Virus record (IMG/VR): IMGVR_UViG_3300046511_000298
Coordinates: 1-32,502 of that record
Direction: 5' to 3' (one strand)
DNA: 32,502 nt
DNA from: a virus
The notes below the pieces were generated by a model. The model did not search any database. It was not told where the DNA came from and worked only from the letters and a program-made list of their open reading frames with translations. The position numbers were made by a program, and so were the translations under genes. Of the stretch, positions 36 to 32,502 are shown piece by piece (positions within the stretch are counted from its first letter, which is position 1; every line of letters starts with the position of its first letter).

Positions 36-158
36 TCTACCCCCTATATATTCATCAAAGGGGGAGTGACCTCCCCGCCCTGCTAGATGCTTCCGATGGA
101 TGCGCCTGGCGGCGCCCCCGGTACGGTGGGCGGGTCGGATCGACCGTAGAGGTCGGGC

Positions 159-184
159 CATAGTGGCGCAAGTAGTGAGACACC
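159..184 (+). promoter_or_regulatory. Motif A copy 1
   Basis: This copy matches the consensus exactly: a left half CATAGTGGCGCAAG directly followed by TAGTGAGACACC. It lies in the non-coding stretch downstream of the leftward gene ending at 250. No rightward gene follows it, so on this strand it is unlikely to be a simple promoter. Read on the other strand it would face left, out of the window. The rest of 1-249 holds motif B, an AT-rich patch (TATATA near 45-51) between C5 and G5 runs, and no gene I can support. Confidence 0.6.
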
Positions 185-249
185 CATCCTAGATACTAGA
201 GTGGCTCGCCTTGCGCGGTAAGCCCGGAGGTCACGTACCGGCGCCCACC

Positions 250-1014
250 TCACCACGTCTTCAGTGGGTGGCCGTTGGGCAGCGTCAGGATCGGCAGAGT
301 CCACTCTCCGTCCCAGGTCCCGGGCAGAATCAGGCCCGAGTTGGCGAGCTTGACCCACTCCTCCACGAACTTCAGCTTGCGGAGCACCATATCCACGTCT
401 GCGGGCGGGACCAACCGGGCCTCGACCGCCTCATGGACCAACTGGACGTAGGGCATACCGCGTTCTCCGGCCCTCGCAAGCCGCAAAGTCAGCCATTCCG
501 CCAGCAGAGCCTCCTCGCGGGGGCCAAAGCAGGCGTCCGAGCATATTCCCACATGCCACGGCGCCAACTTTTGGTCCACCCAGGCCATTTTCCAGTCCGC
601 ATAGTCCCTTTTCAAGCGGTAAAGCTCCTCGCGGGTCGTATCCAGCCGCCAGTTCTTCTCACAACTCCGGCAATGGATCTGGATTGCGAACTGCTGGTAG
701 TGCTCGGCCCACCTGCCGAAGATCGTCAGGCTGCCGTGGTCGCTTCCGGCCTCGATCTCACTCCGCAAAGCGGGGCGGACATCCTGATCCCAGAACCCGA
801 CGAACGGATTGGAGTGCGTCCGCTCGTACAGCGTCCCCTGCTTGCGGCCGCCGAACATGTCGTACCGGCCGCCCATCGGCATCATCGCCATCTGCTGGTA
901 CGATTTCATGAAGGTGGCGTAGTCCAGCCACGGCTTCCCCCGCATCTGCGGCGTGTTCATCTTCGCCAGTGCGTACTGGTACGGATCTCCCCATGAGAAC
1001 GGATTCTTAGGCAT
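250..1014 (-). CDS. Hypothetical protein with paired-cysteine (zinc-site-like) motifs
   Basis: This is a 254-residue protein that I do not recognise. Two cysteine pairs are visible: C115-x2-C118 (IHCRSCEKNW) and C158-x3-C162 (GICSDACFG), with H154 close by. This arrangement could bind one zinc ion. The rest is rich in aromatic and charged residues (WxxYA, FVGFWDQD, WRLDTTREELYRLKRDYADWK) and has no membrane segment. I chose the ATG at 1014 because it follows a GGCGG-like site and overlaps the end of the upstream winged-helix gene by 8 bases. The longer open frame starting at 1119 would overlap that gene by more than 100 bases. The overlap suggests translational coupling and a joint role, perhaps in regulation or nucleic-acid handling, but that is inference. 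Confidence 0.75.
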   Translation of the reverse strand: MPKNPFSWGDPYQYALAKMNTPQMRGKPWLDYATFMKSYQQMAMMPMGGRYDMFGGRKQGTLYERTHSNPFVGFWDQDVRPALRSEIEAGSDHGSLTIFGRWAEHYQQFAIQIHCRSCEKNWRLDTTREELYRLKRDYADWKMAWVDQKLAPWHVGICSDACFGPREEALLAEWLTLRLARAGERGMPYVQLVHEAVEARLVPPADVDMVLRKLKFVEEWVKLANSGLILPGTWDGEWTLPILTLPNGHPLKTW

Positions 1015-1735
1015 TGCGGGCCGCCAGTCCGGCCGCGAGCGCCCGTCCATCGGCGCGGAAGGCCCTTTCGCGGCGGACCCGACGCATCTCAGCACCAATA
1101 GCCAACTGATTGGAACCACTGCGGCGGGCGGCGGTCTCTGCCTCCCCGATCACCGCGTTCTCGAAGCAGTCGCGGCACTGCTGGCACCGGCACTGCCCGG
1201 CCCCGTTCGTGGTGCCGTGGTGGATGATCCCGGTGCTGTTGTTCTGCCAGTTGGCGCGGCCGGTCATCGGAGCATCCAACTCCGCCTCCTGGCTATCCGC
1301 GGCGGGCGCCAGCGTCGCCTCGGTCCAGAAGTACCGCTTGCGCGGGGAACCTGATCCGCGGGTGGTCTCCTCCTTGATCTGCACCTTGCCCTCCGATTCG
1401 AACCTCCGCAGGTGCTCCAGCACGGCGGGCTTGCTGACGCCCAGGTCGCTGCACACGTCCTTCACCCGGACGCCTCCGCCTCCGTACATCTGCATGTAGC
1501 GGCGGACATCATCCTTCACGCTGCCCTGCGGGGCGCGGCCGACAAGACGGACCAGCATCGTGGTCACGTCGTCCACCTGATCGTCGCGCATCCGGTTGCT
1601 GTCGAACACCGGGATGCCGTCCAGCACCTTCATCGCGTAGCTGGAGAACTCCATCTTCTCCGCGGGGGTAGCGTACCCACTGCGGATTGCCTGCTTGTGC
1701 GCCTCCACGGAGAGCGCGATGAGCCGGGCTGACAT
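1007..1735 (-). CDS. Winged helix-turn-helix protein with C-terminal Cys knuckle; putative phage regulator
   Basis: This is a 242-residue protein. Residues about 76-137 look like a winged helix-turn-helix: VRVKDVCSDLGVSKPAVLEHL is helix-turn-helix, then a wing with ESEGKVQIKEE and SGSPRKRYFW. Further on, HHGTTNGAGQCRCQQCRDC carries four cysteines (C182, C184, C187, C190), a pattern seen in many small actinophage proteins. The C-terminus is Arg/Ala-rich. I chose the ATG at 1735, which has AAGGAG five bases upstream, over the GTG at 1741. The gene is first in a leftward two-gene unit flanked by motif A copies 1 and 2, and it lies divergent to the late operon. A DNA-binding role is well supported by the fold. 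That it acts on motif A is only a guess from position. Confidence 0.75.
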   Translation of the reverse strand: MSARLIALSVEAHKQAIRSGYATPAEKMEFSSYAMKVLDGIPVFDSNRMRDDQVDDVTTMLVRLVGRAPQGSVKDDVRRYMQMYGGGGVRVKDVCSDLGVSKPAVLEHLRRFESEGKVQIKEETTRGSGSPRKRYFWTEATLAPAADSQEAELDAPMTGRANWQNNSTGIIHHGTTNGAGQCRCQQCRDCFENAVIGEAETAARRSGSNQLAIGAEMRRVRRERAFRADGRALAAGLAARNA

Positions 1736-1915
1736 TTCCACTCCTTGGTCGTTTCCACTTGGTAACTACCTACAGGAGGGGAACACCTTTGTGGGAGCCG
1801 AAACGGGCTGGGGAGAGACCCAATGAGCCGACCGATACACCGCGCCCCACAGAACACCACCCCATAGGTGTCTCACTACTTGAGCCACTATGACAGCCGT
1901 GCCGAGAGGAGCCTG
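1736..1915. other. Divergent intergenic control region
   Basis: These 180 bases separate the leftward regulator gene from the rightward late block. They contain motif A copy 2 (1867-1892) and a strong AGGAGGGG ribosome-site-like string at 1774-1781. Two micro-ORFs follow that string: GTG at 1791 (11 codons) and an ATGA-overlapping ATG at 1823 (14 codons, stop at 1867). There is also a near-palindrome GGTAACTACC around 1761-1770. I see no convincing sigma-70-type -35/-10 pair in either direction. Confidence 0.5.
1867..1892 (-). promoter_or_regulatory. Motif A copy 2
   Basis: This copy is inverted relative to the other four. On the minus strand it reads CATAGTGGCTCAAG then TAGTGAGACACC, one base away from consensus. 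It sits 24 bases ahead of the first rightward late gene and 131 bases ahead of the leftward regulator gene, so it could control either. The change to GGCTCAA gives it the same TGGCTCAA core as motif B. Confidence 0.6.
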
Positions 1916-2044
1916 ATGCTGAATGTAACCGTCCAAAACGGCACGCACGCCGGGCGCAAGAAGCCTTTCGTCACAGGCCACTCGCCTACGTGTGCGTGCA
2001 CCAAATGCGAGGAGAATCGTCATGGAGATCAGCAAAGCGCTTGA
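1916..2044 (+). CDS. Small Cys-motif protein (42 aa)
   Basis: This is a 42-codon frame with a GAGAGGAG ribosome site just upstream of its ATG. It overlaps the start of the ClpP-like gene by 23 bases. The product is basic at the N-terminus (THAGRKKPF) and then has HSPTCACTKCEEN, a C-x-C-x2-C knuckle. The same HGT...CxCxxC style appears in the winged-helix protein of the neighbouring leftward unit (HGTTNGAGQCRCQQC) and in many short actinophage proteins. It may bind zinc and nucleic acid, but no function can be assigned. The ribosome site, the shared motif and the coupling overlap support it as real. Confidence 0.6.
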   Translation: MLNVTVQNGTHAGRKKPFVTGHSPTCACTKCEENRHGDQQSA

Positions 2045-2648
2045 AGCCAGCGAGATCGGCCTCAACGAACTGAAGGCCAAGCAGATCGGGCTGGAGATCG
2101 CCAGCATGGAGCGCATGTCCGCCAAGAGCATCGCGGAGGACCACACCGGCCAGTTCCACTTCATCAGCCCGGTGCATGAGACCTCCGTCCACCAGTTGAT
2201 CCAGCGGATCGACAGCTACGTCCGCCGGTACCCGGAGGGCGAGGTCGAGATCCTGCTGAACTCCGGCGGCGGAAGCGTCCTTGACGGCTTCGCGCTGATC
2301 GACTACCTTGAGCGCATCAAGCGGCAGGGTACACACGTCCGCATCGTCGGCATCGGCCTCACGGCTTCGATGGCGGGGATCATCCTCCAGGCCGCCAGCG
2401 AGCGGGTCCTGACCCGTCACGCGTGGCTGGGGATGCACGAAATCTCGTCGGTGATCCAGGGCAGCATCACGGTAGCCGAAGACACCATGAAGTTCAGCAA
2501 GGCGCTCCAGGCCCAGGCCGTGGCGCTCCTGTGCGAGCGCAGCACCTTGACGCCCGCCAAGCTGAAGTCCCTGTGGGCGCGGAAGGATGTCTTCATCGAC
2601 GCCACCGAAGCCCTGAAACTCGGCCTCATCGACCGAATCGAGGAGTAG
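2022..2648 (+). CDS. ClpP-type (S14 family) prohead maturation protease
   Basis: The 208-residue product has the hallmarks of the ClpP/crotonase-like serine protease fold. These are the strand-loop EILLNSGGGSVLDGF, the nucleophile context GLTASMAG with Ser116, and the catalytic His139 in WLGMHEIS. A downstream Asp completes the triad in this family. Phage ClpP-like proteins act as head-maturation proteases that cut the scaffold and the capsid N-terminus. The ATG at 2022 follows GAGGAG; an upstream in-frame ATG at 1992 lies inside the small Cys gene and has no clear ribosome site. The gene lies about 6 kb upstream of the scaffold and capsid genes rather than next to them, which is less usual. 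Confidence 0.88.
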   Translation: MEISKALEASEIGLNELKAKQIGLEIASMERMSAKSIAEDHTGQFHFISPVHETSVHQLIQRIDSYVRRYPEGEVEILLNSGGGSVLDGFALIDYLERIKRQGTHVRIVGIGLTASMAGIILQAASERVLTRHAWLGMHEISSVIQGSITVAEDTMKFSKALQAQAVALLCERSTLTPAKLKSLWARKDVFIDATEALKLGLIDRIEE

Positions 2649-4979: not shown

Positions 4980-5257
4980 TGCTCGGACGACACAAGTGCG
5001 ACGTATGCGCGGCCAAGGACCAGACCATCGCCCTTCTGGCGGACCTGGTTGACTGGCACCGCGCTCAGACACACAGCATGACCACATCGGCCTCTCAGGC
5101 CACGATGCCCCCGCAGGAGTACAAGCCTGCCGAGTGGGCGTCGGATGAGGAGGAAGACCTGATCGCCCTGATCGAGTCTGGCGCCCTCAGCAACGAGGAG
5201 TCCGAACGGGCCTTGGCCTCACTCCAAGCCACCAAACCCATTCAGCTAGTCAAGTAG
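4979..5257 (+). CDS. Hypothetical 92-aa protein with N-terminal CxxC
   Basis: This small protein overlaps the terminase stop by one base (TGATG), so it is translationally coupled. It begins MLGRHKCDVCAAKDQTIALLADLVDWH, a CxxC followed by a predicted helix. The second half is acidic (ASDEEEDLIALIESGALSNEESERAL). Short CxxC-helix proteins between terminase and portal are common in actinophages, but I know of no role for them. There is only one CxxC, so metal binding would need a dimer or another partner. Confidence 0.75.
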   Translation: MLGRHKCDVCAAKDQTIALLADLVDWHRAQTHSMTTSASQATMPPQEYKPAEWASDEEEDLIALIESGALSNEESERALASLQATKPIQLVK

Positions 5258-9493: not shown

Positions 9494-10729
9494 ATGGCCG
9501 CAGACCTTACCTCACTGTCGAACGTCCTGAAAGAGTTCTACATCACGCCTCTGGCGGATCAGATGAACCAGGACGTGATGGTGACCTCACTGCTCGACGT
9601 GTCCGCGGAGAACCTGGAGGGCCTCAAGGCCGTCCTGCCTCTCCACTACGGACGCTCCTCGGGTATCGGCGCGCGCTTCGAAGGCGGCACGATCCCGACG
9701 GCGGGCAAGCAGCGCTACGCGCGTGCTGAGTTCGACCTGAAGTACCACTATGCCCGTGTCCAGGTTTCTGGTCCGAGCATCGCCAAGACCGCGTCTGACC
9801 GCGGTTCGTTCCTCCAGGCCCTGAAGTCGGAGTTGGACTACATCCGCAAGGATCTCCAGCTTGACCAGGCCCGGCAGTTCTACGCGGACGGCTCCGGCGT
9901 CGTGGGCACCATCGCCTCGACCTCGGGCGCAGTCGCCACGCTGACCTCGGCCGAGCCGATCAGCAAGGGCTTCCTGTACATCGGAATGTCCTGCGACACC
10001 GGCACGGCCGCCGCTTCGACCAACGACACGACCGCCAACGTCATCACCGACCTGGACCCGACGGTCCCGTCGGTGACGTTCACGTCGAACGTGGCCAACA
10101 CGGCCAACAACGTCATCGTGCGGACGGGCAACGTGTCCATCTCCACGGACACCACGACCAACGCTGAGATCGACGCGGGGCTTCTCCGCATCGCCGACAA
10201 CGTCAAGGTCGTAGGCGGAATCGACCCCGCCGCCACTGGCAAGTCCTTCTGGAAGGGCGTTGCGACCGACAAGGTCGCGGCTCCTGACGTGGCGCTCGAC
10301 GACCTGATGGTCATGAGCAACACCCTGGACAACGCCGGTGTCAAGCGCTCCGACCAGGTGGTCATGACGACCCCGGGCCTGGTGCGCCGACTGTTCCAGA
10401 GCGAGGACTTCAAGGACTCGGTCCGGTTCGTCAACTCGGTCACCCTTGAGGGTGGTTTCGAGAGCATCAGCTTCGCGGCCGGTAACGGCTCGATGAAGCT
10501 CAACGCGGACCGCCTCGCCCCTTGGGGTACGGTGCTGTTCGTGGACAAGTCCGAGGTCAAGGTCTTCAGCCCCGCCGACTGGGATTTCCTGTCGCGCGAC
10601 GGTCTGACGGTCCGCTGGGTCGCTGACCAGGACGCCTTCCAGGCGATCCTGTTCCGCTACGCCAACATCGGTTGCGCTCGCCGCAACACGACCGGCAAGC
10701 TCATCAACTACACCGACACCGGCTTCTAA
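9494..10729 (+). CDS. Major capsid protein
   Basis: The 411-residue protein has the pattern of a widespread family of HK97-fold capsid proteins in phages of actinobacteria and other hosts. Visible features are ENLEGLKAVLPLHYGRSSGIGAR, GTIPTAGKQRYARAEFDLKYHYARVQVSGPSI, a long spine-like helix region FLQALKSELDYIRKDLQLDQARQFYADG, and then a Thr/Ala/Asp-rich beta insertion (about residues 140-230). The C-terminal region has DWDFLSRDGLTVRWVADQDAFQAILFRYANIGCARRN. It follows the scaffold gene and precedes a strong stem-loop. This would be the most abundant virion protein. Confidence 0.92.
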   Translation: MAADLTSLSNVLKEFYITPLADQMNQDVMVTSLLDVSAENLEGLKAVLPLHYGRSSGIGARFEGGTIPTAGKQRYARAEFDLKYHYARVQVSGPSIAKTASDRGSFLQALKSELDYIRKDLQLDQARQFYADGSGVVGTIASTSGAVATLTSAEPISKGFLYIGMSCDTGTAAASTNDTTANVITDLDPTVPSVTFTSNVANTANNVIVRTGNVSISTDTTTNAEIDAGLLRIADNVKVVGGIDPAATGKSFWKGVATDKVAAPDVALDDLMVMSNTLDNAGVKRSDQVVMTTPGLVRRLFQSEDFKDSVRFVNSVTLEGGFESISFAAGNGSMKLNADRLAPWGTVLFVDKSEVKVFSPADWDFLSRDGLTVRWVADQDAFQAILFRYANIGCARRNTTGKLINYTDTGF

Positions 10730-13376: not shown

Positions 13377-15464
13377 ATGGCGATACTCCCAATCCCGAAG
13401 GGCGTTCCTAGCCCTCTCTCGCTGGCGACCTTCGCTGGCGCCCCGGGAGGGATGGCGCGTAACATGCCACAGCAGGAGATCCAGGACACCGAAGGGTGGA
13501 CCCTGGTGGACTGCAACATGGACAACCCCGGCACCGTGGCTCGCCGCGGCCCGCTGACGGCCACCGGTGCGACCAGCGCTGGCAAGGCCAACCGGTTCCC
13601 CCTGGGCATCGCCCGGGTGCAGGACCCCGCTGGCACAGAGCAGACGGTCATCTACTGCCGCACCACGGCCCCGGCCGGTGAGGTGTACGGCTTCGGCAAC
13701 ACGTCCGCGATGACCTCGTTCGCGTGGCCCTACACGCCTACCGCCTCCAGCCCCGCTGACCTGTTCCAGGCCAACGACGTGCTGCTCGGTGGGACGTACC
13801 TCGGCTCGGCCAACAAGTACGACAAACCGACCAACCAGACGCTCCAGCTATGGCGGGGTGCAAGCCTCCCCAACTGGACGACGATGAACTGCACCGGCTT
13901 CACCACCGGCGCGACAACCATCACGGTCACCACCGACATCGCCCACTGCTCGCCCGGACACCATGTGTTCGACACCGGCACCGGCAACCTGGTCGGAGTC
14001 ATCAAGACCATCGCCTCCAACGTCATCACGCTGGAGCACCCCGCCCTGTACACCGGCAGCACGGTGACGCAGATCGACGTGAAGGTCATGCGCGGCACCG
14101 CCGTGCGGGTCGCCACAGGCCGGATCACCTGCTCGGCCGCCGACACCACCTTCGCGGTGAACGGTGGCTCGACCAAGTTCAAGGCGCAGGGCGTCACCTC
14201 GTCCTACGACCTGTACACCCCCGACTACACCTTCGTCGGGTCGGTGGCCTCGGTCACCTCGGACGCGTACCTGCAACTGGTCGCGGCCCCGCTGGTCTCC
14301 CTGGTCAACTCCCCGTACATCCTCATCAAGCGCAACGCGGTGTACACCGGCACCCCGCTGGGGTGGCTCACGGCCACCTTCGCCGGGCACCAGTTCTACG
14401 CCGACGGCAACAACCTTCGGTTCTCGTCCTCGTTCGACCCAGAGGCGGTGGACATCACCGCTGACGGCGACTTCCTGACCTTCTCGGCCGATCCCATCCG
14501 GGCCATCGTGCCAACCACGTCAGCCCTGGTCGTCATCACGGAGACCGAGGTCTTCGCGCTGGTGGGAGCAGTAGGGACCACGCCGGATCGCTGGCGCGGT
14601 ACCCGCATCCACGACGACGGGACTGTCTGCGGCATGACGTGCGTCCAGTACAAGGGCGGCGCCCTCTGGGCTGGGAAGCGCGGCATCTGGTTCTACGATG
14701 GCGCGTCCCCGATCAACGTCGCGGGCAAGCTCGACGCCGACTACCGGCTCGCGCTGTCCACGTTCACGTCCAGCACCACCCGGGCCTACTCCGCCATCGT
14801 CAAGGACCACCTTCTGGTCTGGTTCGAAGCGGTCAAGTCCGGCGTGTTCGACATCAACAAGAACGGCACCGTCACGCACGTCACTCGCCCCACCATCGCC
14901 ATCAACCTGTCCGACGGCACGCTGTGCCTCTGGCAGAACGTGGAGATCCGGGGCGGCATCCAGCCTGCGGACGTGTCCAACCTGGGCACGGCCCTGTTGC
15001 CGATCCAGACCCTGGAGTCTGCGGTCAACACCTCGCGTGTCGTGGTAGGGGAGACCCTGTTCACGGACACGGGGCAGGACGCCTGGACCTGCAACGGTGC
15101 GGCGGCCGCTGGCCCTGACCTGTTCGTCGAGACCAAGAAGTACAGCATGGGCGACATGCAGCGGCTGAAGCTGCACCGTATGTTGCTCCTGGAGTACATC
15201 ACGACGGGTGGCAACATCCGGTTCGACTACGTCCCTGGCCTCAACCAGACCGGGACGCTGGCGGGCACGGAGTTCCTCGACTCGTCCACTGTGTGGATCG
15301 ACAAGCGGATCAAGTTCAACAGCAGAAGCCAATACCTGAGCCTGCGGTTCTACCAGTCGCCCTACCAGGGCAACCCGGCGAACCTCACGCCAGCCAACAC
15401 CACACGAATCGGACTCGGAGCTTGGGCGCTCGGCTTCAAATGGAAGCGCCCCGGACGAGTCTGA
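13377..15464 (+). CDS. Tail nozzle / tail hub protein (P22 gp10-like in role)
   Basis: The 695-residue protein follows the adaptor gene. It opens with PGGMARNMPQQEIQDTEGWTLVDCNMDNPGTVARRGPL. This is the N-terminal signature of propeller-like short-tail proteins, where a list of contributions is followed by RRGPL or RxGxxP. Central repeats resemble propeller blades (GHQFYADGNNLRFSSSFDPEAV, DFLTFSADPIRAIVPTTSALVVITETEVFALVG, GAVGTTPDRWRGTRIHDDGTVCGMTCVQYKGGALWAGKRGIWFYDG). A beta insertion lies at roughly residues 170-325. In podoviruses this protein continues the channel below the adaptor. The assignment rests on these patterns and on gene order. Confidence 0.7.
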   Translation: MAILPIPKGVPSPLSLATFAGAPGGMARNMPQQEIQDTEGWTLVDCNMDNPGTVARRGPLTATGATSAGKANRFPLGIARVQDPAGTEQTVIYCRTTAPAGEVYGFGNTSAMTSFAWPYTPTASSPADLFQANDVLLGGTYLGSANKYDKPTNQTLQLWRGASLPNWTTMNCTGFTTGATTITVTTDIAHCSPGHHVFDTGTGNLVGVIKTIASNVITLEHPALYTGSTVTQIDVKVMRGTAVRVATGRITCSAADTTFAVNGGSTKFKAQGVTSSYDLYTPDYTFVGSVASVTSDAYLQLVAAPLVSLVNSPYILIKRNAVYTGTPLGWLTATFAGHQFYADGNNLRFSSSFDPEAVDITADGDFLTFSADPIRAIVPTTSALVVITETEVFALVGAVGTTPDRWRGTRIHDDGTVCGMTCVQYKGGALWAGKRGIWFYDGASPINVAGKLDADYRLALSTFTSSTTRAYSAIVKDHLLVWFEAVKSGVFDINKNGTVTHVTRPTIAINLSDGTLCLWQNVEIRGGIQPADVSNLGTALLPIQTLESAVNTSRVVVGETLFTDTGQDAWTCNGAAAAGPDLFVETKKYSMGDMQRLKLHRMLLLEYITTGGNIRFDYVPGLNQTGTLAGTEFLDSSTVWIDKRIKFNSRSQYLSLRFYQSPYQGNPANLTPANTTRIGLGAWALGFKWKRPGRV

Positions 15465-19556: not shown

Positions 19557-20291
19557 GTGGCAGACGCGACAACCACCACCACATACACTGGACCCGACCC
19601 TGGTCTCGGTCAGTACGGCATCCTCCAGGGGCAGGCCGAGAAGACCTACGCCGACACCCAGGCCCAGCTTGCCACGCAGCGCACGTCGCTGCTCGGTAAC
19701 AGCGGCCTGGTGGACAACGGCACGGGCGGCTGGCAGGTGGACCCGAACAACCAGTCCGGCACCTACCAGATCATGAACAACCAGCTTGCTGGACAGGGCG
19801 CTGCGGACGACGCAGCCATCGGGGCCATGGGCTTCGGCGGCGGTATCTCCCAGCACGCCAGAGAGATGGCCCAGCAGGGCTACGGCGCCACCCAGGCGTC
19901 CTGGCTCGACAACCTGACCAACGGGCAGGGCGGCCTCCAGGATCTCAAGACGCAGGGCGTGAACGCAGGACAGAAGCGGTCCGGCGACGAGTTCCAGGCC
20001 CTGATGAGCGACATCCAGACGGCCATCGCCAACAACCAGTTCAACCCGGCCAACTACTCCGGCATCAAGATCGACGGATACGACGTGCAGGGCGACCTCG
20101 CGGGCCTCGCGCCCTCGACGGTGGCTGACACGTCCGGCGCCTTCACGGCCCCCGGTAGCGGCAGCGGTGGCGGAATGCACGGCGGCGTACAGTTGTCGTC
20201 GCACCCGCACTACGCAGCCGCGGTCAAGGCGGGCTTCAAGGGCAACTACAACCAGTGGGTTGCCCAAGGCAAGCCGAAAGGTAGGCACTAA
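19557..20291 (+). CDS. Putative internal virion/ejection protein (small)
   Basis: The 244-residue product starts at a GTG preceded by GGGAGGG. The open frame runs back over the previous stop, but that start is a TTG without a site. The sequence is Gln/Gly/Ala-rich and helical (QGQAEKTYADTQAQLATQRTSLLGNSG, HAREMAQQGYGATQASWLDNLTNGQGGL). It ends in a basic tail (NQWVAQGKPKGRH). Three such Gln/Ala-rich genes in a row follow the fibres and precede a cell-wall hydrolase. This matches the place of internal core or ejection proteins of short-tailed phages. No family is recognised; the role is inferred from order. Confidence 0.6.
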   Translation: MADATTTTTYTGPDPGLGQYGILQGQAEKTYADTQAQLATQRTSLLGNSGLVDNGTGGWQVDPNNQSGTYQIMNNQLAGQGAADDAAIGAMGFGGGISQHAREMAQQGYGATQASWLDNLTNGQGGLQDLKTQGVNAGQKRSGDEFQALMSDIQTAIANNQFNPANYSGIKIDGYDVQGDLAGLAPSTVADTSGAFTAPGSGSGGGMHGGVQLSSHPHYAAAVKAGFKGNYNQWVAQGKPKGRH

Positions 20292-21679
20292 TGCCACGCG
20301 GAGGTACTCCAAACCGGACGGCGGGACAGCAGCAGCGAACCCGCAACAGCAACGGTGACATCAACTGGGGCAAGAACGCCAAGTGGGCCTTCTTCAAGCA
20401 CATCCCGGACTCGGTCGGTAACCAGCCCGGCGAGCCGAAGCACGGTGGCCACGGCTGGGTACGCGTTGGCTCCAAGCTCTGGGGCGAGATCAAATACTAC
20501 AACCAGCACACCGCTGGCAAGGTATACACGCAGCAGACCGGCGCCCAGACAGGGCTGGAGAAGTCCACGCCCAAGCTCATTCCGACACGCAAGCTGACTA
20601 GCGCCTTCCGGCCTGGCAGCACCACGTTCAAGGCCACCAACGGCCTCACCAAGAACCCCGGGGTTGACCCGGGCCGCGGTGGGGAGCAGGGTGCCAAGCA
20701 CTCCGGCAAGGCTGGTGACGTGTCGCCGGGCGGCAACAAGAACCCCGGCAACACCAACCCGCCGAAGGGTCCGAAGAACCCGCCCAACCAGTTGAGCACG
20801 TTCGGCAAGGCCATCGGCAACCCGAACAGCAACAAGCTGGAGAAGCTGTCGTCCGCGCAGGCCATCGCTGGCCTCCAGTACGACGCCCAGATCCACGACG
20901 CCAAGCTCCAGATCGCGGAGAATGCGGCGCAGGGCGCTCAGAACGTGGCCGACATCAACACCTGGTACAAGCACCTCGGGAACCTGAACTCTGACGCGCA
21001 GGCGCAGAACAAACAGGACGTGAACCAGCAGGTGCAGGGCAACCTCAACGACATGCTCGCTGGCCTGGCCGCCATCGGCGGTAGCGCGAACGCCTCGGCT
21101 GGCGCCGTGGCCGCCCGCTCCATCGGCGGCAACGACCTGGCCCGGCAGCTTGGGGTCAACGCGGACAACTTCTACAACAACCAGGCGACGGCCCTCGGCC
21201 AGAACCAGGACGCGCAGAAGCTGGCCCAGCAGGCCCTGAACAGCCAGACCGACCTGAACCTGCATAACTCGCTCCAGGACCTCCAGGGGCAGCGCGGGCA
21301 GGCAGTCACTGCCGCGCAGCAGGCCATCCTGGCGTTCAACAACGCAGCCCGGCAGAGCAACTTCGGCAACCGCATCAGCAAGCTCCAGTCGATGTACGGA
21401 GCGCAGCAGCTTGCGACGAACAACGTGATGAGCAAGGCACAGTTGAAGCAGTTCCAGAACTCGTCACCCAGTTCGACTGGGCACATCCCGTTCTACAAGC
21501 AGACCGCGGACCAGCGCCAGAAGACCATCGCGTACCTGCTTCAGGGCGGACCGGTAGACGCGCAGGGCAACCCGGGACCGGTGTCCCTGGCAGTCGCTGC
21601 TCACCGCGCCAAGCTCAACGGCTACGACGCGGCTCCCGGCACTGTGCTGTGGGGTATCCTCGGCACGTACACACACTGA
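20291..21679 (+). CDS. Putative internal virion/ejection protein (mid-size)
   Basis: The 462-residue product starts on the last base of the preceding stop. The N-terminal 180 residues are basic and Gly/Asn/Pro/Lys-rich, probably disordered (KSTPKLIPTRKLTSAFRPGSTT, NPGNTNPPKGPKNPPNQ). The C-terminal two thirds are long Gln/Asn/Ala-rich helices (DAKLQIAENAAQGAQNVADINTWYKHLGNLN, KLAQQALNSQTDLNLHNSLQDLQGQRGQ). Such helical proteins are packed in the virion and leave with the DNA in podoviruses. It lies between two other candidates of this kind. The basic N-terminus could bind DNA. This call is inference from layout. Confidence 0.6.
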   Translation: MPRGGTPNRTAGQQQRTRNSNGDINWGKNAKWAFFKHIPDSVGNQPGEPKHGGHGWVRVGSKLWGEIKYYNQHTAGKVYTQQTGAQTGLEKSTPKLIPTRKLTSAFRPGSTTFKATNGLTKNPGVDPGRGGEQGAKHSGKAGDVSPGGNKNPGNTNPPKGPKNPPNQLSTFGKAIGNPNSNKLEKLSSAQAIAGLQYDAQIHDAKLQIAENAAQGAQNVADINTWYKHLGNLNSDAQAQNKQDVNQQVQGNLNDMLAGLAAIGGSANASAGAVAARSIGGNDLARQLGVNADNFYNNQATALGQNQDAQKLAQQALNSQTDLNLHNSLQDLQGQRGQAVTAAQQAILAFNNAARQSNFGNRISKLQSMYGAQQLATNNVMSKAQLKQFQNSSPSSTGHIPFYKQTADQRQKTIAYLLQGGPVDAQGNPGPVSLAVAAHRAKLNGYDAAPGTVLWGILGTYTH

Positions 21680-21681
21680 GC

Positions 21682-21707
21682 CATACTGGCGCAAGTAGAG
21701 AGAGGGG
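21682..21707 (+). promoter_or_regulatory. Motif A copy 3 (divergent copy)
   Basis: This copy reads CATACTGGCGCAAG then TAGAGAGAGGGG, the most divergent of the five. It fills nearly all of the 34-base gap between two late genes, and its 3' part forms the AGAGGGGG ribosome site of the next gene (ATG at 21714). A protein bound here on DNA or RNA could block that gene directly. It may also be a decayed copy kept only for its ribosome site. Confidence 0.5.
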
Positions 21708-21713
21708 GTTGGC

Positions 21714-24700
21714 ATGGCTAACACCATCGGGCTGTTCGGCTCCAATGTAGGAGCCGGAGCCAAGGGGCGCGTGAAGCCCCGCATCACCCCCGGCGGCGTG
21801 CCGCTGAAGGCGGATACCGCCCAAGGCCCCAAGGCCCCGATCATCCACGCCTCCCCGATCCACCTCACGAACGCCGAACTCGGCATCACATCCAGTTCCT
21901 CCTCCTCCGTCAAAATCCCGACCGGTGGCACCCCTGTGGGGCAGCCCACGTCGGGCGGCGGCGGAGGTGGGAGCACTGGCATCCTGGGCGAGGCTGGCGG
22001 GTTCGTCAGCGGCTTCCTGGGACACCTCGGCTCCGACGTAGTCAAGACCACCCTGGGTATGCCCCTGGGCCTGGTGCACCTGATGACCACCAACCCCGTG
22101 ACCTCCGTCGAGACCATGGCGAAGATGACGTGGGCGGACTGGTCGCCCCTGTTCCACGGCGACGTGAGCCTGTGGGCACACAACTTCTACGCGCACCCGC
22201 TTGCGCCTATCCTCGATGTAGCGTCCGTGGTGACCCTCGGCGCTGGCGCGTCGGCGAAGGGCGCCTCCCTGGCCGTGATGGCTGGGGAGCGCGGGGCACT
22301 GGCAGACGCTGCCGCCGTTCAGGCGGAGCACGGTGTCATGACCGCTGCCCAGCACTCAGCCGCTAACGAGGCTGTCCTGGCTGCCCGCACGGGCAAGCTG
22401 GCCCGCTACGCCAACCCGGTGAAGGCGGAGAACTACCGCATCTCTGCGGAGGCTGGCGCCTCCTGGAACGGCGGGGCCATGGACGCCGAGAAGTACGCCA
22501 AGCTGTACACGGAGATGACCACCACCCCCGGTGGGGTCTATCGCGTGTCCCGAGACATGACCGGCTCGACCTCGGTCAAGACCGACCGCTACGTCAACAA
22601 CCCAATCACCCGCCCCATCCAGAAGTACGTGGACAAGACCACGGAGCGGATCGCTCAGAAGTTCTCCAACGAGAGCATCTTCCGGCGCCACGTCCTGGGG
22701 GAACAGGCACGGTACAACCGCTGGAGCCACCTCGACAAGGGGCAGCGCAGCGCAGCCGTGCAGCACGTCATCCACCAGCAGTTGGCGGCACTCACCGACT
22801 CGGGCAAGCTGTCCGCGTCCATGAGCGTCGGGGCCAAGCTCGGCCTGACCATCCCCGTGGTGGCCCGCATCATGCACGACAACGCGCGCAGCCTCACGAT
22901 CAAGCCCGGGCAGTACACGGAGGAGATCCAGAAGGCGCTTGAGGCGCAGGGCCTCGCCCCGCTTCGGGACGGCCAGCACGTCAACCTGGCTGAGGACACC
23001 CGCGTCATCAACAGCAAGGGCGTCCAGATCAAGAAGTCCCGCATCACGCAGGACAAGATCGTCAAGCAGGCCGACGCGGCCGTGGCTCGCGGCACCAAGC
23101 ACGACGTGGCGCTGGCCGCTGGCCTGAAGAAGATGGGTCCGCTGTTCACCACCAAGGACCCGGCGCAGATGGCCGTGGACGAGGCGGGGAACATCAAGGT
23201 CGTCAGCAACACGCTGGCCCACAAGATGGCGAACGAGGCTCACAACGGCGACCGCGCACTGCGGGCGCTGTACCAGGAGCCGACTCGCGTGTGGCGCCAC
23301 CTGCTGCTGGGCCTCAGCCCGCGGTACTTCGTCAACAACTTCATCGGCAACTCGATCATGCTGATCGCAGCCACCGACCCGGTCAACCTCGCCAAGGCGT
23401 TCATCCACCACACGCGGCTCCGCAACGGGGCGGCAGGGGTGGCGGCGCTACGGGACGAGACCCTCGCGCAAGCGGGCGTCCGGGCCAACCAGCTACTCGC
23501 TATGACCCCTTCCAACGCGGTGTGGGCGGCCCACAGGGCCAAGCTCGCCGGACAGGTAGGCGGGGCAGACGAGGCGATAGCAGCGGCCCAGACCGAGGAC
23601 CTCCTCCGCGGAGGCAACCACGGCCTGTTCTCGGGCGGCAAGGCCAGCAAGTCTGGCGCCGGTGTCAACCCCATCGACGCACACCTGTCGGCGGAGCACC
23701 GCTCGACAATGTCCTCCCAGGCCCAGAGCGACCTGATCGGCAGCACCCGCAAGGGTGTGTCCGGCTGGCTGTCGCGCAAGCCGAACCTCTACCGGATCAC
23801 CCAGGAGTGGGCGGACGAACCGCAGCGCCTGATGGCGATGAACTACTCCGTGATGCGGACGCCTGAGTACCAGGTGGCCGTGGCGCGGCACCTGGCGAAC
23901 GGCAAGAGTGCCACCGAGGCGGCCTACCAGGCCACCAACGAGGTGCTCAAGCAGGGGCCGGTGCGTGAGATCGTGGCGTCACAGGTCCGGCACATGCTGG
24001 GCCAGTACCACACCTTCAGCAAGACGGAGAAGTTCGCCAAGGGCTACCTGATTCCGTTCTACGCGTGGGACCGGGCCATCGTCCGGCACATGCAGTACAT
24101 CATCACGGAGTCGCCCTACAAGGCGGCGATGGGTGCTGCTATCGGAGCGCAGGGTGCGGACCAGTTGAAGCAGATGATCGGCAACGCGCCGGACTTCATG
24201 CAGTCAATGATCCCGCTCGGGTTCCTGGGCAACAGCCCCGGCCGCGTGGCAGCGTTCAACGCGCTGACCATGTCGCCCTACGGCTCCGTCGGCGACCTCG
24301 CCAACCTGGGCATGTCCCTGGTCGGCCTCTCCGACAAGAGCACCGGGCAAGGCTCGGACGCGGCCAGCAACCTGAACCCGATCCTCACGTCCCTGACCGG
24401 GCAACTCTCGGGCACTGACCCGACCACTGGGGCGCCGGTCAAGACCGGCCCCGGCGGCCTCATCGGGGGCACCGCGTATGGCGCCTTCGGCCACCTCCCG
24501 CAGTTGAACCTGCTGGAGTCGGGCGCGGGTAACAACGCACCGAACATCACCGCATCGGGTAGGCCCACGCTGTACGAGCACAACTTCAGCGCGGTCCTGT
24601 CGTCCTTCCTGGGCATCCCGATCAGGCAGATCAGCCCGCAGGCTGCGAACTACACGTACAACAAGGAACACGGCGTGAAGACGCCGAGCAGGAAGAAGAA

Positions 24701-24725
24701 CATGTTCACCATCCCCGGCTTCTAG
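21714..24725 (+). CDS. Large putative ejection protein (1003 aa)
   Basis: This is the longest gene of the window. The N-terminus is Gly/Pro-rich with a GGGGGGS linker near residues 82-90, then long helices. Around residue 520-550, LYQEPTRVWRHLLLGLSPRYFVNNFIGNSIM resembles the W...SPxFFVxNxxxN segment seen in large polyvalent proteins of phages and their internal virion proteins. Helical and Ala-rich parts follow (KMMG/AAIGAQGADQLKQMIGNAPDFMQ), and the C-terminus is basic (HGVKTPSRKKNMF). It is likely ejected with DNA through the tail. The wall-degrading activity is not in this protein but in the next gene. Motif A copy 3 is immediately upstream. Confidence 0.65.
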   Translation: MANTIGLFGSNVGAGAKGRVKPRITPGGVPLKADTAQGPKAPIIHASPIHLTNAELGITSSSSSSVKIPTGGTPVGQPTSGGGGGGSTGILGEAGGFVSGFLGHLGSDVVKTTLGMPLGLVHLMTTNPVTSVETMAKMTWADWSPLFHGDVSLWAHNFYAHPLAPILDVASVVTLGAGASAKGASLAVMAGERGALADAAAVQAEHGVMTAAQHSAANEAVLAARTGKLARYANPVKAENYRISAEAGASWNGGAMDAEKYAKLYTEMTTTPGGVYRVSRDMTGSTSVKTDRYVNNPITRPIQKYVDKTTERIAQKFSNESIFRRHVLGEQARYNRWSHLDKGQRSAAVQHVIHQQLAALTDSGKLSASMSVGAKLGLTIPVVARIMHDNARSLTIKPGQYTEEIQKALEAQGLAPLRDGQHVNLAEDTRVINSKGVQIKKSRITQDKIVKQADAAVARGTKHDVALAAGLKKMGPLFTTKDPAQMAVDEAGNIKVVSNTLAHKMANEAHNGDRALRALYQEPTRVWRHLLLGLSPRYFVNNFIGNSIMLIAATDPVNLAKAFIHHTRLRNGAAGVAALRDETLAQAGVRANQLLAMTPSNAVWAAHRAKLAGQVGGADEAIAAAQTEDLLRGGNHGLFSGGKASKSGAGVNPIDAHLSAEHRSTMSSQAQSDLIGSTRKGVSGWLSRKPNLYRITQEWADEPQRLMAMNYSVMRTPEYQVAVARHLANGKSATEAAYQATNEVLKQGPVREIVASQVRHMLGQYHTFSKTEKFAKGYLIPFYAWDRAIVRHMQYIITESPYKAAMGAAIGAQGADQLKQMIGNAPDFMQSMIPLGFLGNSPGRVAAFNALTMSPYGSVGDLANLGMSLVGLSDKSTGQGSDAASNLNPILTSLTGQLSGTDPTTGAPVKTGPGGLIGGTAYGAFGHLPQLNLLESGAGNNAPNITASGRPTLYEHNFSAVLSSFLGIPIRQISPQAANYTYNKEHGVKTPSRKKNMFTIPGF

Positions 24726-28286: not shown

Positions 28287-28598
28287 GTGACCCGCACGAC
28301 GCTCGTCACCCTGTGCGTGGTCGGACTTGCGTCCGCTCTCGCCTTGACTGACGCGGCCGTGCTGTTCCAGCTTCACCGGCAGATCGACCGGCAGACGACG
28401 GTGCTGCACAAGGTCGAGAAGATCAAGGGAACGCCCGGGCCTCGCGGCCTGCGGGGCTTCCGTGGTCCTCGCGGCTGGCACGGTGTTCGTGGACCGCGTG
28501 GCCCGAGAGGGTTCACCGGCCCCGCCGGACACCCCGGTCCCCGAGGACCCCAGGGTCCCCAGGGAAAGTCCGGCAAGAGCCACAAGCACAAGCCATAG
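28287..28598 (+). CDS. Membrane-anchored collagen-like protein
   Basis: The 103-residue product starts at a GTG with GAAGG upstream. Residues 5-28 form a hydrophobic anchor or signal ([23 protein letters not shown]). A short charged helix follows ([19 protein letters not shown]), possibly a trimerisation coil. From residue 48 to 96 glycine occurs at every third position without a break (17 Gly-X-Y triplets, many of them Gly-Pro-Arg). The tail is basic (KSHKHKP). Collagen-like repeats are common in phage fibres, but here they are linked to a membrane segment in a lysis cluster. The protein may trimerise on the cell surface; its function is unknown. Confidence 0.75.
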
Positions 28599-28619
28599 TG
28601 GCGCAAGTAGTGAGATACC
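28594..28619 (+). promoter_or_regulatory. Motif A copy 4
   Basis: This copy reads CATAGTGGCGCAAG then TAGTGAGATACC, one base from consensus. Its first bases overlap the stop codon of the collagen-like gene. It is followed by GGAAGGAGG and the start of a 23-codon gene at 28642. It is the last element before the bidirectional terminator. Confidence 0.6.
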
Positions 28620-28641
28620 CACCCCTACGGAAGGAGGCTTT

Positions 28642-28713: not shown

Positions 28714-28726
28714 GCCCAACAAAAAA

Positions 28727-28765
28727 GGCCCGGCACCCTCTGGCGATCCCAGGGGGTGTCGGGCC
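28727..28765. terminator. Bidirectional rho-independent terminator
   Basis: A 17-bp stem (GGCCCGGCACCCTCTGG with its partner at 28749-28765, two G-U pairs) closes a 5-base loop (CGATC). It is flanked by A6 on the left and TTCTTT on the right, so it can act in both directions. It sits exactly between the rightward late block and the leftward block that ends at 28777. Confidence 0.92.
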
Positions 28766-28776
28766 TTCTTTCGTTT

Positions 28777-29108: not shown

Positions 29109-29125
29109 CCGCATGGTTGAGCCAA
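29109..29125 (-). repeat. Motif B copy 2 (17-base exact repeat)
   Basis: On the minus strand this reads TTGGCTCAACCATGCGG, identical to the copy at 19-35. Directly ahead of it on that strand is a T-run (positions 29126-29130), and CCCCCTT lies 24 bases upstream. It ends a few bases before the AAAGGAGGTGA site of the leftward gene starting at 29091. That position fits a promoter or an operator for this gene. Confidence 0.55.
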
Positions 29126-31450: not shown

Positions 31451-31451
31451 C

Positions 31452-31850
31452 CTACAGGGCGAACGGGTTCCCCGCGGGGGCGCCATCGCTGGCCGGGGCC
31501 GACGGGGCCACGGCGTTCACGACTTCGCGCTCCTGCGGCGTCACGCAGGGGATGGCCGTCAGGCGCTTGGCATCGACCTTGGTGTAGGTCTTGCCGTTGT
31601 ACTCGCGCTGGCTGACCGGACCCTCGACGTGGAGGATGAACCCCTCCTGGATGGACATGGCGACGTGGGCGAACTCGCTCCACAGCGCGATGTCAACCAG
31701 GTTCTGGTTCGTGGTCTTGATGGTCATGTTGTACACGGCCTGCCCGTTGGCGTCGCCAACCTTGACAGCCTCGCGGACGCCCGTCGTCTTGTCGGGGAAC
31801 GCCTGCACCATGCCGGACACGTATGCCCACGGCTTCTTGACTTCAGACAC
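31452..31850 (-). CDS. SSB-like OB-fold protein
   Basis: The 132-residue product starts at a GTG with AAGGAG eight bases upstream. The order of strands fits an OB fold of the single-stranded DNA-binding type: YVSGMVQAFPDK, AVYNMTIKTTNQNLVDIALWSEFAHVAMSIQEG, FILHVEGPVSQREYNGKTYTKVDAKRLTAIP. A disordered Ala/Pro tail ends in NPFAL, which resembles the hydrophobic tip of SSB tails, although it lacks the usual run of acidic residues. It would cover single-stranded DNA in phage replication. It neighbours an endonuclease VII-like gene. Confidence 0.7.
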   Translation of the reverse strand: MSEVKKPWAYVSGMVQAFPDKTTGVREAVKVGDANGQAVYNMTIKTTNQNLVDIALWSEFAHVAMSIQEGFILHVEGPVSQREYNGKTYTKVDAKRLTAIPCVTPQEREVVNAVAPSAPASDGAPAGNPFAL

Positions 31851-32136
31851 TGATGAACTCCTTGTACGGTGGGTTGCGGAGGTACGCAGCGCACGCCTCT
31901 AGCCACTCGGGCGTGACCCAGTCCGGCACGTTGCGGTTGCAACGCACGCAGAGCAGGCCGCGTACTTCCATGGTCTTGTGGTTGTGGTCGCGGTCCAGCC
32001 TCCGGGTGGAGGGTGGCCGCCCGCAGATGGCACAGACGCCTGCTTGGAAAGCGAGCAGGCCGTCGTAGTCTACGGTGTCGAGCAGAGCACGATGCTCCGC
32101 AGCCCGCGTGGGCTTACGCTTCCGCGGGGATGGCAT
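31843..32136 (-). CDS. Endonuclease VII-like (HNH/treble-clef) nuclease
   Basis: The 97-residue product shows the full signature of recombination endonuclease VII: CAICG (C35, C38), LDRDHNHKTMEVRGLLCVRCN (catalytic D50-H51 and H53, then C63 and C66). The four cysteines bind zinc, and the DHxH segment holds the metal for cleavage. The family resolves branched DNA before packaging, though small versions also nick or debranch DNA. A basic N-terminus (SPRKRKPTR) probably contacts DNA. It overlaps the next gene by 8 bases. Confidence 0.88.
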   Translation of the reverse strand: MPSPRKRKPTRAAEHRALLDTVDYDGLLAFQAGVCAICGRPPSTRRLDRDHNHKTMEVRGLLCVRCNRNVPDWVTPEWLEACAAYLRNPPYKEFISV

Positions 32137-32401
32137 CCGGCATCCAGTTGTCGGGATCGACGCGGTGTACCCACCACGCCTTCATGTGCTGGCCTCTCTC
32201 GGAGTGGATGAACTTGGAGTCCAACTCCAGGAAGATGTCGCCGGTCTTGCCCGCGATGCGGACGATGTCGCCGGTCACCGGGTGCGGGTAGAACGTCCGC
32301 AGACCGTCGTCGGCTATGTAATACTGCCCCTCCCACTCGACCAGCCGGTCGGGGTGCAGCGCGGGGAGCTTTACGGGCGCCCCCGTTTCATCTACTTCCA
32401 T
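32114..32401 (-). CDS. 95-residue hypothetical protein
   Basis: The ATG at 32401 has a GAGAGGAGGCC site just upstream. The product is a small beta-rich protein (LVEWEGQYYIADDGLRTFYPHP, GDIVRIAGKTGDIFLELDSKF, HMKAWWVHRVDPDNW). It is not recognised. It overlaps the endonuclease gene by 23 bases. Motif A copy 5 lies immediately upstream, so this may be the first gene of the leftward unit or an internal promoter may serve it. Confidence 0.65.
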   Translation of the reverse strand: MEVDETGAPVKLPALHPDRLVEWEGQYYIADDGLRTFYPHPVTGDIVRIAGKTGDIFLELDSKFIHSERGQHMKAWWVHRVDPDNWMPDAIPAEA

Positions 32402-32411
32402 GGCCTCCTCT

Positions 32412-32437
32412 CATAGTGGCGCAAGTAGCGAGACACC
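32412..32437 (+). promoter_or_regulatory. Motif A copy 5
   Basis: This copy reads CATAGTGGCGCAAG then TAGCGAGACACC, one base from consensus. It lies in the 35-base gap between the stop of the partial gene at the right edge and the ribosome site of the leftward gene at 32401. In the direction of those genes it is read inverted, unlike copies 3 and 4 in the rightward block. Confidence 0.6.
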
Positions 32438-32502
32438 TAGAAGATCAGCGGGCCGAGAGGCGCCGCGGGATCGAGTGCCAAGCTGCCGTCCGGCATGTCC
32501 GT
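32437..32502 (-). CDS. 3' end of a leftward gene (partial)
   Basis: A leftward frame enters from the right edge and ends at a TAG at 32437-32439. The last residues are DMPDGSLALDPAAPLGPLIF, too short to identify. The open frame without stops, followed directly by motif A and the next gene, suggests a real gene whose main part lies outside the window. An internal Met would also allow a very short gene, which is less likely. Confidence 0.5.
   Translation of the reverse strand, partial: TDMPDGSLALDPAAPLGPLIF

Follow-up and report, generated by a model that had tools for sequence, protein, structure and literature searches.

The winged-helix gene and the repeated sites around it

Does a phage gene for a winged-helix protein, lying between two copies of a repeated intergenic motif, encode the protein that reads the motif? 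The question arises at the left end of an incomplete phage genome, IMG/VR record IMGVR_UViG_3300046511_000298, the whole 32,502 bp of which was analysed and is referred to here as the window. Profile matches revealed tailed phage genes (TerL, a P22-type portal and a ClpP-like head protease), all rightward, and replication-type genes (polymerase-exonuclease-like, endonuclease VII and SSB-like) running leftward from the right end. A strong terminator-like hairpin of 19 pairs (28725-28767) separates the late from the leftward genes. A virion RNA polymerase within the large structural protein at 21714-24725 was considered and rejected, as there was no family match and the polymerase-like motif was absent. 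The features of the window discussed below are:

157-189 (+), motif A copy 1; located past the 3' end of the partner gene, and reading leftward when taken in the ACTTGMGCCACTATG sense
250-1014 (-), partner gene, conserved beside the winged-helix gene; its start overlaps the winged-helix stop
1007-1735 (-), winged-helix protein, 242 aa, ATG at 1735 (profile match, alignment, AlphaFold and structural alignment)
1864-1892 (-), motif A copy 2; its sense faces rightward, towards the late operon
1916-2044 (+), small first gene of the rightward operon, 42 aa, with C-x-C-x2-C; conserved in relatives G003 and G002
2022-2648 (+), ClpP-like head maturation protease, second gene of the rightward operon (family matches)
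20291-21679 and 21714-24725, late genes (gene calls) bordering the 34-bp gap that holds copy 3
21680-21712 (+), motif A copy 3; reads leftward, opposite to the late genes
28592-28624 (+), motif A copy 4; reads leftward, close to the late-operon end and ~100 bp before the hairpin
32114-32401 (-), leftward gene just below copy 5 (gene call)
32410-32442 (+), motif A copy 5; reads leftward, is followed by AGAGGAGG and stands 10 bp ahead of the start of gene 32114-32401

Motif A is asymmetric, about 26 bp long (consensus GGTGTCTCACTACTTGCGCCACTATG), and is present in five copies. Four matches to the 26-mer were found at up to three mismatches, against 0.00 expected from shuffles, and five to its 17-bp core, against 0.08. 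Copies 1 and 2 are oppositely oriented and form a 29-bp inverted repeat (93% complementary) that encloses both the winged-helix gene and its partner, confirming the arrangement proposed by the sequence-only reading. That reading had also put copy 2 in the divergent region where both the regulator and the late operon could start, which is correct; the copy lies ~130 bp upstream of the winged-helix start and only 24 bp upstream of the rightward ATG at 1916, and is therefore tied by position more to the start of the late operon. By our gene calls, three of the five copies agree with local transcription (copies 3 and 4 are the exceptions), and only copies 2 and 5 precede a start codon in their sense direction.

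A strain contig, L013, is 99.9% identical to the window over 9.9 kb and carries copies 1 and 2. It runs ~970 bp further left, and this region of ~1 kb, at the edge of which copy 1 is situated, holds no convincing gene. Exact motif A was found elsewhere in IMG/VR only in L013, plus single matches in unrelated contigs at about chance level. No sigma-70-like promoter was detected at the motif sites in the regions scanned. The possibility that the motif functions as an RNA hairpin was rejected for the window and for relative G005, the sites of which fold no better than shuffles (z near 0 to -1.6); an Rfam search of the window and L013 gave no match.

Structure of the winged-helix protein and its neighbours

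The protein consists of an N-terminal domain (residues 1-66), the winged helix (70-141), a linker, a C-x-C-x2-C near 182-187 and C-terminal helices. The AlphaFold model is confident over residues 70-141, with helices at 73-87, 91-98 and 102-114 and strands at 118-123 and 132-137, and also over the N-terminal domain, which includes a beta hairpin. Structural alignment (VIA) of residues 70-141 to solved winged-helix domains gave Z scores of 8.5-10.2, the top match being 3r0a (Z 10.2, rmsd 1.6 over 66 residues), and together with the model this confirms the winged helix. MarR, ArsR, Fur, Zalpha and TFE domains score close behind 3r0a, so no single winged-helix family is favoured. Weak Pfam similarity points to a winged helix over the same residues, but the best Pfam score was 20.3 bits (cut-off 23.1), and no named regulator family (MarR, ArsR, TrmB, HTH_10 and others) scored above its curated cut-off. 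NCBIfam scores were far below their cut-offs, and the best PHROGs match had an E value of 0.019. Regulators of the MarR/ArsR/TrmB/Fur type share the fold of residues 70-141, with no match above any Pfam cut-off, but lack the extra N-terminal domain with its hairpin and the Cys-bearing C-terminal part.

Alignment of four homologs showed conservation in the region of the recognition helix (SKPxxLxxLR), in the wing (ExxTRxxGSxRKxYxW) and towards the C-terminus, where the sequence is (T/S)GIxxHGT...CxCxxC. The cysteine string CRCQQCRDC is literally the C-x-C-x2-C-x2-C that had been described from the sequence as a knuckle, but only the first three cysteines are invariant among the four homologs. 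Of the two parts for which a fold prediction had been suggested, the wing is modelled confidently, while residues 141-183, which precede and enter the cysteine string, have pLDDT values below 50; no knuckle fold is predicted, and with three conserved cysteines a knuckle is unsupported.

The partner protein has invariant Cys115, Cys118 and Cys162 and a C-terminal LPxGHP. A family search with it gave no match, and its predicted structure is of modest confidence (mean pLDDT 61). The C-x-C-x2-C of the small first late gene (1916-2044) resembles the Cys motif of the winged-helix protein.

Relatives carrying the winged-helix gene

Relatives were gathered by a TerL search (52 contigs), and among those tested the gene is present in three: G003 and G005, of 48-49 kb, and G002, a 9-kb fragment. 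Their proteins are 41%, 36% and 43-45% identical, respectively, to that of the window. Besides these and the strain contig L013, no copy of the gene was found in IMG/VR, and homologs were found neither in INPHARED phages nor, by alignment search, in GTDB genomes; a TerL search of GTDB genomes revealed no prophage. G005 seems to be circular, with matching end repeats and a winged-helix gene that continues across the ends.

The gene always adjoins the same partner gene and, where the small-gene/ClpP/TerL operon is present, is divergent from it; gene order around the two-gene module is conserved. Both large relatives also encode a second winged-helix protein (G003 39505-39888, G005 38963-39520), which is paralogue-like, with 31% identity over the winged-helix region, and the locus of which would fall outside the window. 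A Ku-like protein is encoded by both G003 and G005, and an ATP-dependent DNA ligase by G003 (L075 3946-4803 and 3007-3876 in G003; L078 1626-2459 in G005).

Versions of the motif in the relatives

G005 carries 14 copies of its own version, ACCTGAGCCAGTAARG, and G003 seven sites of the form AC(C/T)TGMGYCTCCATG. The sites of the window and G005 are single, whereas those of G003 are mostly dyads: five of the seven are accompanied by an inverted half-site at a distance of exactly 28-29 bp (probability by chance 0.0036 per site), a spacing that would be expected of a site for a DNA-binding protein. Read in one sense, ACYTGMG is common to all three motifs, and an upstream TCTC is common to G003 and the window. 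No recognisable copy was seen in the gene-bearing fragment G002, and a PWM scan of G002, G006, G007, G008 and G013 gave nothing above the shuffled maximum. Patterns of the G005 and G003 types occur in IMG/VR in those genomes only, plus single unrelated matches. As RNA, the dyad at 14903 in G003 forms a strong fold (z -6.6), which any DNA palindrome would do.

Orientation obeys one rule, in that sites follow leftward transcription, save one that follows late transcription. The window, G003 and G005 each have a single divergent-gap site reading rightward into the first late gene, and nearly all their other sites read leftward. Of the 14 sites in G005, 11 are among leftward genes, and in 10 of these no more than 13 bp separate the site from the start codon that follows. 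Most G005 sites run directly into the Shine-Dalgarno sequence of the next gene, and 12 of 14 agree with local transcription by our gene calls. The exceptions are parallel in the window and G005: a leftward site inside the late operon (copy 3 of the window, 9996 in G005) and another near its convergent end (copy 4, and 24225 in G005).

At many G005 sites (e.g., 27125, 29774 and 37117) the motif doubles as the last codons of the upstream gene, NLSQ-stop, which gives unrelated proteins a common tail. In both G003 and G005, the exonuclease and polymerase halves of DNA polymerase A are separate, with other genes between them, in G005 at 31451-32269 and 34321-35511 (L077 11451-12269, 14321-15511) and in G003 at 35853-37016 (L074); the intervening genes of G005 include an integrase gene on the opposite strand. 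In G005 both junctions of the split polymerase carry a site of the motif A type; in G003 such a site lies at the exonuclease end.

Co-occurrence of gene and motif, and signs of lysogeny

If the winged-helix gene is the regulator of the sites, as had been suggested from the sequence, the two should be found together. G003 and G005 have both, while 13 larger TerL/helicase relatives without a winged-helix match have only 0-3 matches to the 10-bp core, and the stretches examined of relatives lacking the gene contain no repeated intergenic word like that of G005. No phage was found with the motif and without the gene. The association is incomplete on the other side, as G002 has the gene and no recognisable motif, and the proposal that this conserved gene is the regulator is partly supported. 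All of the co-occurrence comes from a single small lineage, and common descent by itself could account for it.

An integrase (PF00589) is present in all three of G002, G003 and G005, against two of 12 relatives without the gene (one-sided exact probability ~0.02, uncorrected for relatedness). With tyrosine integrases in all three gene-bearing relatives the lineage looks temperate, and the phage of the window may be so too; the search of its incomplete record, which does not include the integrase region, found no integrase. Gene and motif appear to travel with an integrase-bearing lineage, which supports a lysogeny-type regulator, with function and ancestry inseparable.

A proposed repressor and its operators

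The interpretation we prefer, tentatively and at somewhat less than an even chance, is that the winged-helix protein is a phage-encoded regulator of transcription, most probably serving as repressor in a temperate lineage, and that motif A is its asymmetric operator, scattered in the manner of stoperators. The protein would bind the motif A sites and, once bound, would stop early transcription running leftward at many junctions between genes, and late transcription running rightward at the single site before the late operon. The operators would act on passing or starting transcription, presumably by blocking elongation. Several points count against this: the co-occurrence within one lineage, the want of a motif in G002, site numbers (5-14 per genome) below those of the cluster A phages (20-30), dyads in G003 where the window and G005 have single sites, the orientation of copies 3 and 4 and of two G005 sites, which runs counter to local transcription, and the second winged-helix protein encoded by G003 and G005, which could be the binder.

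The last point leads to the alternative that survives best, although we consider it doubtful, namely that the motif is a regulatory DNA site read by the second phage protein or by a host protein, and that the gene in the window regulates something else. That paralogue-like protein is found in both large relatives, a regulator need not adjoin a site in cluster-type arrays, and copy 2 is further from the winged-helix start than from the late gene. On the other hand, it is the window's gene that lies between two sites and that is syntenic beside the late-operon site in all phages seen.

We regard as unlikely, and a little more so, that the motif is a start-associated element, serving translation or transcription initiation like the SAS/ESAS or cluster EC motifs described below, or a host promoter of an unusual sigma class, with an incidental winged-helix neighbour. 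The way most G005 sites lead straight into a Shine-Dalgarno sequence, and copies 2 and 5 of the window into gene starts, fits such an element, and the SAS and cluster EC motifs too are repeated, asymmetric and predominantly of one orientation (PMC3203893, PMC7302621). However, copies 1, 3 and 4 and the G005 sites at 9996 and 24225 precede no gene in the sense direction, and the G003 sites are inverted repeats. Promoters are further disfavoured by the want of sigma-70-like sequences at the scanned sites and of any sigma-70 region 4 match in G003 and G005. As for a T7-type polymerase, the largest leftward gene called in G003 and G005 (440 aa) is too short; a search for single-subunit RNA polymerase families gave no match, but neither did its positive controls.

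That the motif is a gene-junction linker, kept for gene swapping by recombination, with copies 1 and 2 as the inverted ends of a movable two-gene cassette, is very improbable: the inverted repeat, the stop codons in two frames plus Shine-Dalgarno sequence supplied by G005 copies (the NLSQ-stop ends), and the copies flanking the genes inserted in the split polymerase gene of G005 (34297, 32272) would suit it, but the two-gene module keeps one fixed location across the relatives, the interval from copy 1 to copy 2 contains no recombinase gene, and a fixed orientation and conservation at 14 unrelated junctions suggest a bound site.

Comparison with known phage site systems

Scattered asymmetric sites served by a phage repressor are an already known kind of system. 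The repressor-operator reading has a close parallel in the cluster A phages. Their 13-14-bp sites are oriented with transcription, and repression is lost when they are reversed (PMC6550527, PMC9283540); binding sites lie both upstream and downstream of the repressor gene (PMC6550527). The stoperators of L5, Bxb1 and TipsytheTRex, like the sites described here, are short, asymmetric, repeated in small gaps and mostly of one orientation per arm. In both systems the sites are found on both sides of the repressor gene (here the putative one), the lineage bears integrases, and the motif diverges with the regulator among relatives. Cluster A genomes have 20-30 sites, compared with five in the incomplete window, seven in G003 and 14 in G005. 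Other differences are that here the putative binder is a winged-helix protein with a Cys-rich C-terminal part, that the motif is a different one, that some sites oppose local transcription, and that G003 has dyads. No cluster A repressor was among the PDB sequence matches to the winged-helix protein, up to an E value of 1.

The SAS/ESAS elements of cluster K are also asymmetric, have one main orientation and are located near start codons, often overlapping the upstream stop codon. The ESAS, imperfect 17-bp inverted repeats whose sequence is specific to the subcluster, resemble the G003 dyads. The SAS consensus, GGGATAGGAGCCC, is unrelated to that of motif A, and, unlike SAS, several sites here precede no start in the sense direction and one faces the late operon. 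In Microbacterium cluster EC phages an 18-bp motif occurs, as here, in about a dozen asymmetric copies in small gaps upstream of Shine-Dalgarno sequences. Its copies differ in being all in the sense orientation, 21-30 bp from the start codon, and of unrelated sequence, and the phages are lytic and encode a sigma factor.

Readers of repeated asymmetric intergenic sites in phages have been established in few cases, such as the cluster A Rep; SAS/ESAS and the cluster EC motif are not among them. Here a candidate reader adjoins the sites in a small phage family, and the motifs have diverged together with the protein. None of the libraries searched contained the protein family, the motif or the variation between single and dyad sites. 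A bolder extension of the repressor-operator reading, and a speculative one that we would not expect to hold, is that this is a second, independently evolved immunity system of the stoperator type, in which a winged-helix repressor with a Cys-bearing C-terminal part would bind asymmetric junction sites and silence the prophage by blocking elongation, the site switching between single and dyad forms among close relatives.

A second repeated word and possible origins

A second word, CCGCATGGTTGAGCCA, occurs in the window at 19-34 and 29109-29124 (both +), in L013 at 10391-10404 (-), in L073 at 549-564 (-) and in L057 at 5050-5063 (+). It is present in 117 stretches of IMG/VR, several times above chance, in phages of very different composition, and a literature search found no paper on it in a phage context. 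Near-matches are carried by Lactococcus, Streptococcus satellite, Staphylococcus and Anaerostipes phage records, where they are mostly unannotated. Its aligned contexts give GCAAACCCGCATGGTTGAGCCA, then AA or TT, and iteron-like repeats surround 33% of the sites compared with 3% of control windows. The word may be a widely shared replication-origin element. The contig ends of G003, in the region downstream of the partner gene, carry tandem 16-bp and 20-bp repeats (L073 1-110; the end of L075, G003 47992-48099), which are possibly a replication origin.
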